64,000 bases of DNA from Arthrobacter sp. Edens01. GTDB taxonomy: Bacteria; Actinomycetota; Actinomycetes; Actinomycetales; Micrococcaceae. Of the stretch, positions 45,891 to 52,372 are shown one piece after another. The notes under the pieces are model-generated. The model ran no database searches, was not told the DNA's origin, and saw nothing but the letters and a program-made list of their open reading frames with translations. The stretch is taken from assembly GCF_001307035.1 (NCBI RefSeq), contig NZ_LKIU01000005.1, forward strand, positions 916,300-980,299, in the 5' to 3' direction. Both the position numbers and the translations under genes were made by a program. Position 1 is the stretch's first letter. Each line of letters opens with the position of its first letter.

Positions 45891-46952
45891 CTAGGGGAGG
45901 ACAACAACCTGGGCGCCGAAGACCAGGCCGGCGCCAAAGCCGATCTGCAGCGAGAGCTTCCCGCTGAGTTCGGGGTGCTCGCTGAGCAGGCGGTGGGTGG
46001 CAAGCGGGATGGATGCTGCGGAGGTGTTGCCGGCGTCGGCGATGTCCCGGGCAATGACAACGGACTCGGGGAGCTTCAGCTGCTTGGCCATTTCGTCGAT
46101 GATCCGCATGTTGGCCTGGTGGGGAACAAAGGCACCGAGGTCCTCGGCAGTGATACCGGCGGCGTCGAGTGCCTGCTGCGCGGACTTTGCCATTTCCCAT
46201 ACAGCCCAGCGGAATACCGTCTGGCCGTCCTGGCGGAGGGTGGGCCAGAGCTTGGTTTCGCGTTCAGCCAGCACGGAGGCAGGCAGTGTTCCTTCGGCCT
46301 CGGCGGCCAGGGACAGTTCGCGGATCTCCAGCATTGAATGCGTCATGCCGATGGCTCCGGACTTGCTGCCGTCCGAGCCCCATACCGACGGACCGATGCC
46401 CGGAGTGTCTGACGGGCCGATGACAACAGCGCCGGCGCCGTCGCCCAGCAGGAAGGAGATGGTGCGCTCGGTGTTGTCGATGAAGTCCGAAAGCTTTTCG
46501 ACACCAACAACCAGTACGTACTTGGCTGCGCCCGACCGGACAAGGGCATCTGCCTGGGCAATGCCGTAGCAGTAGCCGGCACAGGCTGCGGAAACGTCAT
46601 ACGCCGGTGCGGGAGTGGCACCCAGCCGGTCCGCTATCTGTGCGGCCGCCGACGGGGTGGCGAAGGGATGCGTGACGGTGGAGACGATCACTGCATCAAG
46701 GGCCGATCCGTCGATCCCGGCGTGGGCCAGGGCGTCGCGTCCGGCCATCTCAGCCATGTCTACTACGGAGGTGCCCTTGTCTGCCCGGTGCCGGGTGACG
46801 ATGCCGGTGCGCTGGCGGATCCACTCGTCGGAGGACTCGATCCACTGGCACACATCGTCATTGCTGACGATCACGTCGGGCCGGAAAGCCCCAATGCCGT
46901 GGATACGGCTGAATTCGTTGACCGGGGACTGCTTCAGGGTGGGCGTGCTCAC
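45891..46952 (-). CDS. fabH: 3-oxoacyl-[acyl-carrier-protein] synthase III (FabH)
   Basis: Initiates FAS-II by condensing an acyl-CoA primer with malonyl-ACP. The 353-residue protein has catalytic Cys in SAACAGYCYG (about 124), His in VPHQANMRII and Asn in DAGNTSAAS. Actinobacterial FabH enzymes usually accept branched primers. The GTG overlaps the fabD stop by 4 nt. It is a distant homologue of OleA at 14.4-15.5 kb. Confidence 0.96.
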   Translation of the reverse strand: MSTPTLKQSPVNEFSRIHGIGAFRPDVIVSNDDVCQWIESSDEWIRQRTGIVTRHRADKGTSVVDMAEMAGRDALAHAGIDGSALDAVIVSTVTHPFATPSAAAQIADRLGATPAPAYDVSAACAGYCYGIAQADALVRSGAAKYVLVVGVEKLSDFIDNTERTISFLLGDGAGAVVIGPSDTPGIGPSVWGSDGSKSGAIGMTHSMLEIRELSLAAEAEGTLPASVLAERETKLWPTLRQDGQTVFRWAVWEMAKSAQQALDAAGITAEDLGAFVPHQANMRIIDEMAKQLKLPESVVIARDIADAGNTSAASIPLATHRLLSEHPELSGKLSLQIGFGAGLVFGAQVVVLP

Positions 46953-47905
46953 GCGTTACCTTCTTGGGTTGTAACTGCTGCCGCGCCGGAATGCTCGGCC
47001 ACAAAGGCACGGGCAGCGGCGAGGTCTTCGGGGGATTTCAGGGCCAGGGAGGGGACGCCGCGCATACCGCGCCTGGCGAGCCCGGTAAGGGTACCGGCCG
47101 GCGGAAGTTCCAGTATCCCGGTGACGCCCATGGCTGTCATGGTCTCCATGCAGGCGTCCCAGCGAACCGGGCGTGAAACCTGGGCGATGAGGCTGTCCAG
47201 GTTGGCTTCACCGCTCACTACCGCGGCGCCGTCGTAGTTGGACAGCAGGGTCGGCAGGGGCTGGGCGGGGGAGAGCGAGGGGCGCAGGGCTTCGAGCACG
47301 CTCAGCGCCGGTTCCATGTGGGTGGTGTGGAAGGCCCCGGCCACCTTGAGCGGAATGACCCGCGCCTTCGCCGGCGGGTTCGCGGACAGCTCCTGGAGCT
47401 GTTCGAGTGTTCCTGCTGCCACGGTCTGCCCGCCGCCGTTGGCATTGGCAGCGGTGAGGCCGAGTCCGTCCAGGACCCTGGCGACGTCCTCGGGGTCACC
47501 GCCGAGTATGGCGGACATGCCGGTGGGAACCTCGGCAGCTGCGCGGGCCATTGCATTGGCGCGCTCCCGGACAAAGAGCAGCGCGTCCTGTTCGGTCAGG
47601 GCGCCTGCTACGGCGGAAGCGGTGATTTCACCAACGGAGTGACCGGCGACGACGGTTGCTGCGGTCAGAGCGCCGGTGTCCAGCAGCTGCCTGGCTGCGA
47701 TCAGTCCCGCCGCCACGATCAGCGGCTGGGCGACGGCGGTGTCCTTGATCGTTTCTTCATCCGAGACGGTGCCGTGGGCAACGAGGTCAAGGCCCGCGGT
47801 GTCCGAGAGCGCTTCGAGGTGCTCCCGCACTCCGGGCAGTTCCAGCCACGGAGCGAGGAAGCCTGGCGTTTGTGACCCCTGGCCGGGGCAGACGATTGCA
47901 AGCAC
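46949..47905 (-). CDS. fabD: Malonyl-CoA:ACP transacylase (FabD)
   Basis: Loads malonyl groups onto ACP. The 318-residue protein has the N-terminal CPGQGSQTPGF, the nucleophile serine in VVAGHSVGEITA (about 92) and the catalytic His in GAFHTTHME (about 193). GTG 47905 is used, with GGAAAG upstream. It is the first gene of the fab operon, 109 bp after fasR. An inverted repeat shared with the fasR promoter region lies in that gap. Confidence 0.96.
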   Translation of the reverse strand: MLAIVCPGQGSQTPGFLAPWLELPGVREHLEALSDTAGLDLVAHGTVSDEETIKDTAVAQPLIVAAGLIAARQLLDTGALTAATVVAGHSVGEITASAVAGALTEQDALLFVRERANAMARAAAEVPTGMSAILGGDPEDVARVLDGLGLTAANANGGGQTVAAGTLEQLQELSANPPAKARVIPLKVAGAFHTTHMEPALSVLEALRPSLSPAQPLPTLLSNYDGAAVVSGEANLDSLIAQVSRPVRWDACMETMTAMGVTGILELPPAGTLTGLARRGMRGVPSLALKSPEDLAAARAFVAEHSGAAAVTTQEGNA

Positions 47906-47972
47906 GTATCAAGCTTTCCAAAGAGGGACAGGTTTGCCGGGTGTTTAGGTGAACCAAGCTCACCGAGGCGCG

Positions 47973-47989
47973 TTGTAGGAAGTCTACAA
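47973..47989. promoter_or_regulatory. Inverted repeat TTGTAG-GAAGT-CTACAA, candidate FasR operator
   Basis: Perfect 6-bp arms with a 5-bp spacer, 68 bp upstream of the fabD start. A variant, TTGTGT-GAAGG-CTACAA, is found at 49282-49298, upstream of fasR. This is the expected pattern for a fatty-acid-synthesis regulator that controls itself and the fab genes. Confidence 0.6.
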
Positions 47990-48014
47990 GTGGTGCGCAG
48001 GTGGGCAAGTGCGT

Positions 48015-49244
48015 TTAGGAGCGGGCTGCCTGCCGTTCGGGAACGGCCTTGCCCGCCGGTGAAAGCCGCCCGACGACGAGGGCGGTCTGCAGTACGAAGG
48101 CTTCGCGGGGCAGCATGGGATCCCATCCGGTGATATCGCAGACGCGGCGAAGCCGGTAGCGGACAGTGTTGGCGTGCACGAACAGTTCGCGGGCCGTGGC
48201 CTCCAGGGAGTGCCCGAGGGAGAGGTAGGCGGAGAGTGTTTCAGCCAAGCCGTTGGAGGCGGCCAGCAGGGGCCGGTAGATGCTGCGGACCAGCGCCTTG
48301 CGTGCCGTGTCATCACCGGACATGACCCGCTCCGGCCAGAGGTCGTCGGCGGCCACCGGGCGGGGCGCCGCGGGCCAGGCCCGGGCAGCAGTCAGGCCGG
48401 CAAATGCCGCCTGGGCGGACGGGCCCGCTTCAACGAGTGATTCCGCAGGGGGCCCGTAAACAACCGGGCCGGGGCCGAACAGATCTGCCAGCCGGGACAG
48501 GGCGCCGGACTTTTCGCTCATGCCGCCCAGCACCAGGATCAGCCTGTCTCCCTGGATGCCCACGAGGGTGTCTTCGGCCAGGCGTCCTGCCACCCGCCGC
48601 AGTTCGTTGACGAAGGAGGGGCTGGGATCCGCTGGCGAGCTGCCAACAATGACGGTCACTCCGGCGGTGGAAGTCCAGCCGACGGCGGCGATGCGGGAGC
48701 GAAGGGCATCCGAGCTTTCCCCGCGGAGAATTGCATCCACTACAAGGGCTTCCAGCCGGGTATCCCAGGCGCCGCGCGTTTCTGCGGCGCGGGCGTAGAC
48801 GTCCGCTGCTGCGAAGGCCACCTCCCGTGAATAGCGGAGAACTGCTTCGCGCAGCGGTCCCTGCACGGAACCGGCGGCCAGCTCGGGCACGCGGTCTTCC
48901 ACTACCTGCACGACCACACGGATCAGTGCCAGCGCCTTTTGCAGGCTGATGGCGCGGGTCAGTTCGGTGGGGGCGGTGCCAAAGACATCGCTGAGGACCC
49001 ATGCCGGGGAGGCGGGACGTTCGTACCAGTTGACGAAGGAGGCAATGCCCTTCTGGGCCACCATTCCCAGCGCAGAGCGCTCATCCGGCCGCAGTCCCCG
49101 GTACCAGGGGAGGGAGACATCGAGCTGTTTGAGGGTGGCGGTGGAGAGCTTGCCGATGTTGGCTTTGAGCCGCTCCAGGATCAGTGGATCGGCACCGCTT
49201 TGCGGCGCCTTTGTTTCCTGTGGCGTACTGCGGGTCACTGGCAT
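48015..49244 (-). CDS. fasR: FasR-type regulator of fatty acid synthesis (PucR/CdaR family)
   Basis: A 409-residue protein with a PucR-type C-terminal helix-turn-helix: SLGHSLEATARELFVHANT (about 345-363) followed by VRYRLRRVCDITGWDP. The middle region is a degenerate GGDEF-like domain. In Streptomyces, FasR of this architecture sits next to fabD-fabH-acpP-fabF and activates it; the same order is kept here. ATG 49244. The binding site is predicted from paired inverted repeats at 47973 and 49282. It has no recognisable ligand pocket. Confidence 0.88.
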   Translation of the reverse strand: MPVTRSTPQETKAPQSGADPLILERLKANIGKLSTATLKQLDVSLPWYRGLRPDERSALGMVAQKGIASFVNWYERPASPAWVLSDVFGTAPTELTRAISLQKALALIRVVVQVVEDRVPELAAGSVQGPLREAVLRYSREVAFAAADVYARAAETRGAWDTRLEALVVDAILRGESSDALRSRIAAVGWTSTAGVTVIVGSSPADPSPSFVNELRRVAGRLAEDTLVGIQGDRLILVLGGMSEKSGALSRLADLFGPGPVVYGPPAESLVEAGPSAQAAFAGLTAARAWPAAPRPVAADDLWPERVMSGDDTARKALVRSIYRPLLAASNGLAETLSAYLSLGHSLEATARELFVHANTVRYRLRRVCDITGWDPMLPREAFVLQTALVVGRLSPAGKAVPERQAARS

Positions 49245-49281
49245 CCTCGAAGCTTACGGCCTTCGGTCTCCAACCTCCATT

Positions 49282-49298
49282 TTGTGTGAAGGCTACAA
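49282..49298. promoter_or_regulatory. Second candidate FasR operator (TTGTGT-GAAGG-CTACAA)
   Basis: It matches the repeat upstream of fabD in the right arm (6/6), most of the spacer (4/5) and part of the left arm (4/6). It lies 38 bp upstream of the fasR start and 32 bp past the end of aceE. Confidence 0.5.
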
Positions 49299-49329
49299 CT
49301 GTGAGTCTCCCGCCCTGCCGCCGTCGGGC

Positions 49330-52068
49330 CTAGGCGTCACCCCCGGCGTTGCCGCTGGTGCCCTTGGTGACATCCAGCAGGTGGTACCGGCTGATCGCTT
49401 CGGAGGGTGCCTTGGAATCGACTTCGCCGCGGCGGGCGAGCATTTCCAGGGCACGGACCACCACGGAGTGGCTGTCGATCTTGAAGAAACGCCTGGCTGC
49501 AGCCCGTGTGTCGGCGAAGCCGAACCCGTCAGCGCCCAGGGACGCGAACTCGTTTGGCAGGAACTGGCGAATCTGGTCCGGAACGGCTTTCATGTAGTCC
49601 GAAGTTGCCACCACCGGACCGGTCGCACCGGCCATCTGCTGGGTTACGAACGGCACCCTGGGTTCCTCATCGGGGTGCAGGAAGGCTTCTTCCTCAGCAG
49701 CCAGGCCATCGCGGCGCAGTTCGTTCCACGAAGTCACCGACCACACATCCGCCGAAACCTTCCAGTCCTCGGCCAGGAGCCGCTGGGCTTCCAGCGCCCA
49801 CGGCACGCCGACACCGGAGGCGAGCAGCTGGGTGCGCGGCCCGTCAATCGACGCGGGGGAGAGCAGGTAGATACCCCGGATCACACCTTCAACGTCCAGA
49901 TCCTCCGGTGCCTTGGGCTGAAGGATCGGTTCGTTGTACGCCATGATGTTGTAAATGACGTTCGGGTCCTTGGAATCCGGACCGTACATGTCATCCAGGC
50001 CCTGGCGCACAATGTGGCCGATCTCGTAGCCATAGGCCGGATCGTAGGTCTTCACCGCGGGGTTGGTGGAGGCCAGGATCGGGGAGTGGCCGTCGGCGTG
50101 CTGCAGGCCTTCGCCGGTAAGGGTGGTGCGGCCGGCAGTTGCGGAGACCATAAATCCGCGGGCCATCTGGTCAGCTGCTGCCCAGATGAAGTCCCCCGTG
50201 CGCTGGAACCCGAACATCGAGTAGAAGATGTAGACCGGAATCAGCGGCACGCCCTGCGTTGCGTATGAGGTGCCCGCGGCGGTGAAGGCCGCTATTGACC
50301 CGGCCTCGTTGATGCCAACATGCACAATCTGGCCCTGGGGTGATTCCTTGTACGCCAGCACCAGGTCCCGGTCCACGGAAAGATAGTTCTGGCCCTGGGG
50401 GTTGTAGATCTTCGCCGTCGGGAAGAACGAGTCCATGCCGAACGTCCGGGCTTCATCCGGGATGATCGGCACAATCCTCATACCGAACTCCTTGTCCCGC
50501 ATCAGGTCCTTGAGCAGCCGCACAAACGCCATGGTGCTGGCCGCCAGCTGCTTGCCGGAGCCGCGGTTCGCAACCTCGTAGGACTTCTCTCCGGGGAGAT
50601 GGATCGGCTTGTAGTCCGTGCGGCGTTCCGGGAGGAACCCGCCGAGTTCACGGCGCCGGTCCAGCATGTACCTGATCTCCGGTGCCTGCGGCCCCGGGTT
50701 GTAGTACGGCGGCTGGTACGGGTCCGCTTCGAGCTGCTCGTCGGTGATCGGGATTCGGAGTGAGTCCCGGAACAGCTTGAGGTCATCCAGGGTGAGCTTC
50801 TTCATCTGGTGCGTGGCGTTGCGCGCTTCGAAGTGCGGACCGAGGCCGTAGCCCTTGACCGTATGGGCCAGGATGACGGTGGGCTTTCCCTTGAACTCCA
50901 GCGCCGCCTTATAGGCCGCGTAAACCTTCCGGTAGTCGTGCCCGCCGCGCTTCAGGTTCCAGATGTCGTCATCGGAAAGACCGGACACCATGGCCTTGGT
51001 CTGCGGGCTCTTCCCAAAGAAGTGGTCGCGGATAAACCCGCCGGACTCGCCCTTGTAGGTCTGGTAGTCGCCGTCGACCGTCGAATTCATGATGTCCACC
51101 AGCGCGCCGTCGTCGTCGGCGGCGAGCAGCGGGTCCCACTCGCGGCCCCAGAGAACTTTGATGACGTTCCAGCCGGCACCGCGGAAGAACGCCTCGAGTT
51201 CCTGGACAATCTTGCCGTTGCCGCGCACCGGACCATCCAGCCGCTGCAGGTTTGCGTTCACTACGAAGGTGAGGTTGTCCAGCTTGTCGTTGGCCGCCAC
51301 ATGGAGCAGGCCGCGTGATTCCGGCTCATCCATCTCACCGTCACCCAGGAACGCCCAGACGTGCTGGTTGGAGGTGTCCTTCATGCCGCGGTTGTCCATG
51401 TAGCGGTTCAGCTGTGCCTGGTAGATCGCGTTCATGGGACCAATGCCCATGGAAACGGTGGGGAACTCCCAGAAGTCCGGCATGTTCCGCGGGTGCGGAT
51501 AGGACGAAAGGCCGTGGCCTTCGCGGGACTTCTCCTGACGGAACCCGTTCAGGTCCTCTTCAGTCAGCCGTCCTTCGAGGAAGGCGCGGGCATACATTCC
51601 CGGCGCAGCGTGCCCCTGGAAGAAGACCTGGTCGCCTCCGCCGGGGGCATCCTTGCCGCGGAAGAAGTGGTTCATGCCCACTTCATAGAGGGTGGCAGCA
51701 CCCGCGAAAGTGGAGATATGGCCGCCGACGCCGATGCCCGGGCGCTGCGCCCGGTGCACCATGATTGCAGCGTTCCAGCGCATCCAGGCCCGGAACCTCC
51801 GTTCAATCTCCTCGTCGCCGGGAAAATCGGGTTCCTGGTCCACCGGAATGGTGTTCACGTAGTCCGTGGTGGTCACCATGGGAACGCCTACGGAATGCGC
51901 ACCGGCCCGCTGCAGGAGCGTGCGCATGATGAACTGGGCCCGTTCGGTTCCCTCGGTGCGGATCAGGTCATCCAGGGACTGGACCCATTCGGAGGTCTCT
52001 TCGGGATCATTGTCGGGCAGCTGGCCGGTGAGCCCGCTGAGGATATCCGTCTTGTCTTCTGCGGCCAC
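49330..52068 (-). CDS. aceE: Pyruvate dehydrogenase E1 component, homodimeric (AceE)
   Basis: A 912-residue thiamine-diphosphate enzyme that decarboxylates pyruvate and passes the acetyl group to E2 lipoate, feeding acetyl-CoA to fatty acid synthesis. It is the single-chain E1 of proteobacteria and actinobacteria. The ThDP motif is [12 protein letters not shown] (near residue 248-259). [15 protein letters not shown] and [15 protein letters not shown] are characteristic. The GTG start has AGGAG 6 nt upstream. It is transcribed toward fasR and the fab genes with no clear terminator between. Confidence 0.97.
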
Positions 52069-52372
52069 GAAACTCTCCTATGCACAGGTGGTGCCTGGAA
52101 CCTGCCGCTGCGGGGGTCCTTTGCCTGCGGGGACGTTTCCGCGGTCGGCCGGATGCCGGGGACATACGCGCCGCGGGTACCCGCCGTGCGTGTCCTTTTA
52201 GCCACTGTAGACCGGCAGCCGCGGCTTGCGTAGCCTTCCCGGCGAAGGCCGTTCCCGGTCCGTGGAACCCTTGAAGCTTGCCGGTTAAAGGTGTTCCCTT
52301 GAGTCAGGAAAAGGGCAGTTCGGGCCAAGATGTGATTCCCTTGTATTTATGCAGTCAACCAGGAGGAGTGAA
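52069..52372. other. 304-bp divergent intergenic region between aceE and the DUF3052 gene
   Basis: No coding frame of note. It holds the SDs of both flanking genes, a perfect inverted repeat GCCTTC-CCGGC-GAAGGC (52233-52249), and on the minus strand a GAAGGCTAC half-site (52230-52238) resembling the proposed FasR site. A minus-strand TACAGT (52205-52210) could be the aceE -10. No strong -35 boxes were found. Confidence 0.5.

Follow-up and report, generated by a model that had tools for sequence, protein, structure and literature searches.

The window, a stretch of 64,000 nucleotides from Arthrobacter sp. Edens01, carries the gene order aceE-fasR-fabD-fabH-acpP-fabF, on the minus strand throughout. 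A sequence-only reading had put forward two inverted repeats, one before fabD and one before fasR, as marks of a candidate FasR regulon. Both are present exactly as described (Table 1) and identical at 14 of 17 positions, as claimed, and their reality is confirmed. The accompanying remark that the window holds no further good match also stood: there was no other site within two mismatches of TTGTAG-N5-CTACAA, nor within three of the composite pattern drawn from the two repeats, both of which match that pattern with 0 mismatches. Shuffled windows held a mean of 0.35 matches to the composite pattern at ≤3 mismatches, a test that proves little alone because the pattern was derived from the two sites. 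Two such matches occurred in 6 of 100 shuffles, which speaks for the reading that two similar 17-mers were picked by eye; conservation at fixed positions across many families and genome-wide specificity refute it, and its probability is close to nil.

Table 1. Features of the fasR-fabD region (window positions) and places in the genome within one mismatch of TTGTAG-N5-CTACAA (contig positions).
Feature	Position	Strand	Description
fabD, ACP S-malonyltransferase	46949..47905	minus	First gene of fabD-fabH-acpP-fabF
Proposed -10 of fabD	47912..47917	minus	AAAGCT, 6 nt upstream of start codon; mRNA probably leaderless
Proposed weak proximal FasR site of fabD	47941..47957	minus	TTGGTTCACCTAAACAC; conserved TTSGT-N9-CACC block (column conservation, 144 loci)
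Strong FasR box, fabD promoter	47973..47989	minus	TTGTAGACTTCCTACAA in gene direction; 68-84 nt upstream of fabD start codon; predicted site; 0 mismatches in genome-wide search
fasR, PucR/CdaR-type regulator	48015..49244	minus	Domains: GGDEF-like, HTH_30; orthologous to MabR (Rv2242)
Proposed -10 of fasR	49251..49256	minus	TAAGCT, 25 nt after box, 6 nt before ATG
FasR box, fasR promoter	49282..49298	minus	TTGTAGCCTTCACACAA in gene direction; predicted site
Half-site upstream of aceE	52230..52238	minus	GAAGGCTAC; present, rejected as FasR site
Genome-wide site	C5:310710		1 mismatch; before biotin carboxylase-BCCP gene (Pfam)
Genome-wide site	C5:318276		1 mismatch; before carboxyltransferase gene (Pfam)
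Genome-wide site	C5:1331761		1 mismatch; before bioY (Pfam match to BioY in two congeners; located in G000)

FasR is a 409-aa protein of the PucR/CdaR type, with a GGDEF-like domain (PF17853) and a C-terminal HTH_30 domain (PF13556). It is 96% identical to FasR of Arthrobacter gandavensis, with which the window genome is congeneric, and to that of congener G005. A profile of 22 FasR orthologs matched both solved fragments of Rv2242, the MabR of Mycobacterium tuberculosis (9f80, E 7.9e-82; 9fb1, E 3.3e-31), and the match to 9fb1, an N-terminal fragment, points at the sequence level to an N-terminal nonheme globin-like domain of the MabR type. The TetR-type FasR of Corynebacterium and Mycobacterium was rejected as a counterpart; the window protein has PucR-type domains and no TetR fold. 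The gene lies directly upstream of fabD, and a FabD match followed fasR in 52 of 53 loci.

The sequence-only reading had proposed checking conservation upstream of fabD and fasR, and both boxes proved to be kept. Loci were drawn from fasR-fabD regions of the genus, the family, and the order plus 80 named actinobacterial loci; with identical fabD surroundings removed and L077 and L180 left out (no FabD match in the stretch), 177 unique loci had FabD, and 164 had FasR. Each was scored by its best mismatch count to TTGTAG-N5-CTACAA within 130 nt before fabD. Mismatches in the 164 FasR-bearing loci numbered 0 in 68, 1 in 32, 2 in 33, 3 in 12, 4 in 12, and 5 in 7. The box (≤3 mismatches) stood 82 to 86 nt before the fabD start codon in 144 of these loci and at 126 nt in one more, against a chance expectation of ~0.1 matches in the five-base slot, as computed from the window genome, where each strand has 396 matches at ≤3 mismatches over 3.64 Mb. 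At 82 to 86 nt the TTGT-N9-ACAA core was exact in 118 of 164 loci and within one mismatch in 144, and 13 of the 19 loci with four or five mismatches to the full box retained a word within one mismatch of this core at 82 to 84 nt. All 12 Streptomyces loci (S. coelicolor was outside the sample) had a fabD box with ≤3 mismatches at 85 nt, some altered in both arms to match (TTGTTG...CAACAA). In the Micrococcaceae set, 61 of the 69 loci had the fasR-promoter box (≤3 mismatches); outside it, 49 of 95 did. Micrococcaceae-type and Microbacteriaceae-type labels follow record names and similarity rather than a tree, and one Micrococcaceae locus (L063) is filed with the other families in the promoter-spacing and box-conservation counts. 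Within the Microbacterium-type group, the fabD box drifts to forms such as CTGTACG...CACAA, which suggests shifted FasR specificity.

A total of 51 of 297 genomes of the order had no FasR match at an E-value cutoff of 1e-25. FabD was looked for in 20 listed genomes of these 51 and found in 12, and none of their 13 fabD loci had the fabD box (best, 4 to 7 mismatches). The difference from the FasR-bearing loci (box in 145 of 164 versus 0 of 13) gave a Fisher P of 2e-11, computed on loci that are not independent. The 12 genomes fall into two groups, four in a small-genome genus of the same family and eight in a second family; with FasR lost in few lineages, the co-occurrence rests on about two independent losses. 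More generally, the genera are related, and the co-occurrence figures, like the phase figures below, overstate independence. FasR and the boxes are absent together from that genus (g3: G030, G161, G229, and G322; 2.0 to 2.5 Mb) and from family f11, whose fabD loci carry GGAGG (7 of 9) or GGAGA (2 of 9) shortly upstream of the start codon.

Assignment of the repeats at fabD and fasR as predicted FasR operators is strongly supported by the co-occurrence with FasR, the fixed position, and the published MabR operator. The palindrome could instead be the operator of another regulator co-inherited with FasR, as arms of the form TTGT...ACAA are seen elsewhere, for instance in the reported Rex operator TTGTGAA-W4-TTCACAA. 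However, the box precedes fasR itself in most loci of the Micrococcaceae set, is absent where FasR is absent, and has the core of the mapped MabR operator, and such a regulator is improbable. Rex sites are 18 bp long with even spacing, whereas the window sites are 17 bp with arms TTGTAG/CTACAA; the Rex operator (TTGTGAA-N4-TTCACAA) was rejected as a candidate.

A genome-wide search, likewise suggested in the earlier reading, found TTGTAG-N5-CTACAA with at most one mismatch at just four places in the 3.64-Mb genome (13 for a reversed control pattern), all at lipid or biotin genes: fabD, two carboxylase genes, and bioY (Table 1). Neither carboxylase subunit reached the cutoff of an NCBIfam model, and the assignment to acyl-CoA carboxylase comes from Pfam. 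A model of the site made from sequence only (69 sites, ten genomes, 150 candidates scored per genome) gave 24 distinct places at E ≤5, namely, fabD (8), biotin carboxylase (8), carboxyltransferase (7), and bioY (1); at this threshold and among these candidates, no place lay beside any other gene. This absence of other targets is the sole informative part of the result because the model was built from such sites, the candidates were limited to 150 per genome, and the E-values were near 1.

The same boxes recur in related genomes. Among Micrococcaceae, the carboxyltransferase box (≤2 mismatches) was present in 18 of 18 FasR-bearing versus 0 of 4 FasR-less genomes, the biotin carboxylase box (≤1 mismatch) in 10 of 10 versus 0 of 1, and the bioY box (≤2 mismatches) in 7 of 17 versus 0 of 4. 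In other families, the box occurred in 1 of 6 FasR-bearing genomes at the carboxyltransferase gene, in 4 of 15 (≤2 mismatches) at the biotin carboxylase gene, and in 0 of 4 at bioY; FasR-less genomes of these families had none of the three (0 of 2 each). The carboxylase-biotin extension is mainly a Micrococcaceae trait, since the carboxylase boxes are sporadic in other families. The candidate FasR regulon appears to be not only supported but wider than proposed, with the predicted addition of both acyl-CoA carboxylase subunits (alpha and beta) and bioY.

Among 27 bioY loci, the FasR box was found in 7 and a different palindrome, TTGAAC-N3-GTTCAA (≤2 mismatches), in 8, but never both together. 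The latter is a BioQ-like palindrome. It stands where the bioY FasR box is missing in L289, L291, L293, L295, L296, L300, L301, and L302. Another word, TTGTGGAAAGAATACAA (L021:1501-1517; C6:73092 in the window genome), recurs in many of the listed congeners and looked like a further site. In the window genome it falls inside an open frame of 379 aa that looks like hisC, and its recurrence was taken as coding conservation.

Promoter anatomy gave consistent distances between the box and a candidate -10 element. In all 18 carboxyltransferase promoters (shuffled mean, 0.7; maximum, 5) and all 7 box-bearing bioY promoters (shuffles, 0.2), TANNNT started 22 to 23 nt past the palindrome, and in 49 of 58 fasR promoters of Micrococcaceae (shuffles, 2.2) it started 24 to 25 nt past the box. 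Because the palindrome ends 22 to 25 nt before TANNNT, the box would be centered at approximately -44, the position of a class II activator. A consensus promoter scan of fabD and fasR turned up no -35/-10 pair, nor was one visible by eye at the carboxyltransferase promoters. The biotin carboxylase promoter departs from the 23-nt rule, with TANNNT at 59 to 62 nt in 9 of 10.

At fabD, with columns counted from the start codon (159 unique loci), position -11 was A in 90%, position -7 was T in 89%, and position -14 was G in 96%. We infer an extended -10 lying six nucleotides upstream of the start codon and hence a leaderless mRNA, although T at -12 occurs in only 1% of these loci and GGAAAG could alternatively be a Shine-Dalgarno or ribosome site. 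The proximal fabD site TTGGTTCACCTAAACAC lies 32 nt downstream of the strong box, as measured between their starts, and its conserved TTSGT-N9-CACC block falls mostly 22 to 25 nt upstream of the proposed -10, approximately the same as for the main box at the carboxyltransferase promoter. The FasR site of S. coelicolor is reported at about -67 from the transcription start site (PMC5541348); if that site lies 85 to 69 nt upstream of the start codon, as in the 12 Streptomyces loci, transcription would start within about ten nucleotides of that codon, which fits a leaderless fabD. fasR also has a leaderless-like arrangement, with 6 to 7 nt from the -10 to the next ATG or GTG in 53 Micrococcaceae and 35 other placements.

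Alternatively, the fabD repeat might act in RNA, as a fasR terminator or a leader hairpin. Its box (47989) comes shortly after the end of fasR (48015), and its surroundings (47960 to 48003, minus strand) fold better than shuffles (z, -3.2). There is, however, no T tract, and no intrinsic terminator (G+C-rich stem plus T run) was found in 47850 to 49400; the fasR copy has no such fold (z, -0.2), and at unlinked promoters this word also precedes the -10. An RNA element is thus very unlikely.

Second sites were sought with a weight matrix made from fabD sites only in 31 carboxyltransferase, biotin carboxylase, and bioY promoters whose main site was strong and whose downstream sequence was long enough, with same-genus duplicates dropped. 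A positive second site was found downstream of the main one in 21 of the 31 (shuffles: mean, 1.0; maximum, 5) and was lacking in 10. The distances were 53 to 55, 64 to 65, 74 to 76, or 87 to 88 bp. Over all 31 promoters, they were concentrated in phase at 10.5 bp (R, 0.85 versus 0.16; reached by 0 of 1,000 shuffles), and periods of 10.8 to 11.5 fit slightly better than 10.5. There were departures: the biotin carboxylase second site scored below zero in all eight scored loci of the window's genus, and in one omitted same-genus carboxyltransferase promoter (L309), the second site lay at a distance of 78 bp, which does not fit the series. Since the second sites lie a near-whole number of helical turns away, FasR dimers may occupy one face of the DNA cooperatively, possibly in the form of a tetramer. 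MabR is reported to form dimers and tetramers in solution; its authors favor a DNA-bound dimer and call the effect of the tetramer on DNA binding unclear (PMC11617747).

Whether bound FasR would activate or repress may depend on where the box stands. Outside Micrococcaceae, the fasR box ended 8 to 10 nt before TANNNT in 33 of 49 box-bearing loci and 6 to 12 nt before it in 35 of 49 (shuffles, 1.2), and in none of the 49 did it end 22 to 25 nt before it. Autorepression is the natural reading of this arrangement because bound protein would cover the -35 region. In Micrococcaceae, the fasR box stands at the activating distance, and the sign of fasR autoregulation may have changed between Micrococcaceae and the other families. 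The biotin carboxylase promoter carries a weak second site at a repressing distance, so that either sign is possible there.

These spacings also bear on whether FasR is a repressor at these promoters, with boxes overlapping the promoter or next to it, where bound protein would keep RNA polymerase out. The short fasR spacing outside Micrococcaceae, the similar spacing of the weak second biotin carboxylase site, and the carboxyltransferase second sites, which fall downstream of the -10, would fit such a mode, and the TetR-type FasR of Corynebacterium glutamicum is reported to repress its own acc genes (PMC6460773). Against this, S. coelicolor FasR and MabR are both reported as activators, and the box lies at about -44, with no recognizable -35, at the Micrococcaceae carboxyltransferase, bioY, and fasR promoters. 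General repression is therefore rather unlikely.

Pyruvate dehydrogenase had been linked to fatty acid synthesis through a half-site upstream of aceE. The 9-mer is present as claimed, one of two occurrences of GAAGGCTAC in the window (expected, 0.17), but the link did not hold up: among the 37 loci with aceE upstream sequence, the half-site was found in one, that of A. gandavensis, and among the Micrococcaceae-type loci in 1 of 21. It was rejected as a FasR target for Micrococcaceae as not conserved. Microbacteriaceae-type loci have a different arrangement, with an exact TTGT-N9-ACAA core 66 to 68 nt before aceE in 8 of 15 (the Microbacterium-type loci L237, L252, L259, L260, L261, L263, L270, and L273, with aceE and fasR adjacent or overlapping) and fasR following aceE within -25 to +9 nt (extrapolated start) in 15 of 15. 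FasR control of a putative aceE-fasR unit is plausible in that family.

Considering all of these observations, the inverted repeat is very probably the FasR operator, through which the fab operon, the acyl-CoA carboxylase subunits, bioY, and fasR would be switched on as one unit in this genus; both the binding and the activation are what we infer from the comparisons above. FasR, encoded between aceE and fabD, would bind the 17-bp palindrome TTGTAGG-NNN-CCTACAA (core TTGT-N9-ACAA) and activate the fab operon, the predicted carboxylase subunits for a malonyl-type precursor, the biotin transporter feeding that carboxylase, and fasR itself. It would sit at about -44 on the carboxyltransferase, bioY, and fasR promoters. 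At fabD, with its presumably leaderless mRNA, the strong box 32 bp upstream might help FasR onto the weak proximal site. A bolder combination is possible, though tentative: FasR as a switch for the whole malonyl-CoA, fatty acid, and biotin pathway, acting through operator pairs in helical register (32 bp at fabD) that are bridged by a MabR-like tetramer, with the sign set by position (activation 22 to 25 nt before the -10, repression at 8 to 10 nt), fasR flipped between self-repression and self-activation by a box slide of ~15 bp, and bioY moved between FasR and a BioQ-like regulator.

The shared box suggests one switch for fat building, the supply of a malonyl-CoA-type building block, and biotin import; a single box predicts from sequence the genes through which this group may match acetyl-CoA carboxylase, its biotin cofactor, and fatty acid synthase to each other. 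Lipid and polyketide engineering in Arthrobacter and Streptomyces may gain a handle in the gene set that it defines. With sites in phased pairs, the MabR/FasR tetramer may have a role here, and the two positions of the fasR box offer a natural experiment on a sign change in an autoregulatory loop. A 2024 abstract describes transcription regulators specific to ACCase as still elusive (PMC11602165). In the literature searched, which covered few subscription papers, we recognized no description of FasR/MabR boxes at acyl-CoA carboxylase or biotin genes. As far as that search extends, the carboxylase-biotin extension, the phased pairs, the box-to-promoter rules, and the two fasR arrangements are apparently new.

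The closest known system is MabR, which is reported to bind TTTTGT-N9-ACAAAA and to activate fasII (PMC5541348). The earlier reading had expected a defined FasR site for this group, and this expectation stands as far as the operator is concerned, but an operator of this type had already been published for MabR (PMC5541348). FasR is an ortholog of MabR (Rv2242) by profile over both solved parts of the protein, with its gene likewise before fabD and the same TTGT-N9-ACAA core. Unlike in MabR, the arms here are TTGTAGG/CCTACAA, and the predicted targets add an unlinked acyl-CoA carboxylase, bioY, and fasR itself. Expression of mabA-inhA and fabH is reported to fall on MabR depletion, and the authors report no consensus MabR sites there. 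S. coelicolor FasR (SCO2386) is of the same family and shares the synteny; it is reported to be a MabR ortholog that recognizes a closely similar repeat and switches on the fab operon, and it activates fabDHPF (PMC7324645). Unlike in Arthrobacter, none of the 12 Streptomyces loci had a match within three mismatches in the stretch scanned before fasR. C. glutamicum FasR offers a functional parallel only: with fasO at accBC, accD1, fasIA, and fasIB, acetyl-CoA carboxylase and fatty acid synthase come under a single regulator there too (PMC6460773), but this regulator is reported as a TetR protein and a repressor with the unrelated site AAAANATGACNANNTCCTCATNTTT (PMC10933834). AccR, an activator of the LysR type described as serving the ACCase gene accS alone, belongs to yet another family and shares with the proposed role of FasR the activation of acetyl-CoA carboxylase transcription (PMC11602165).
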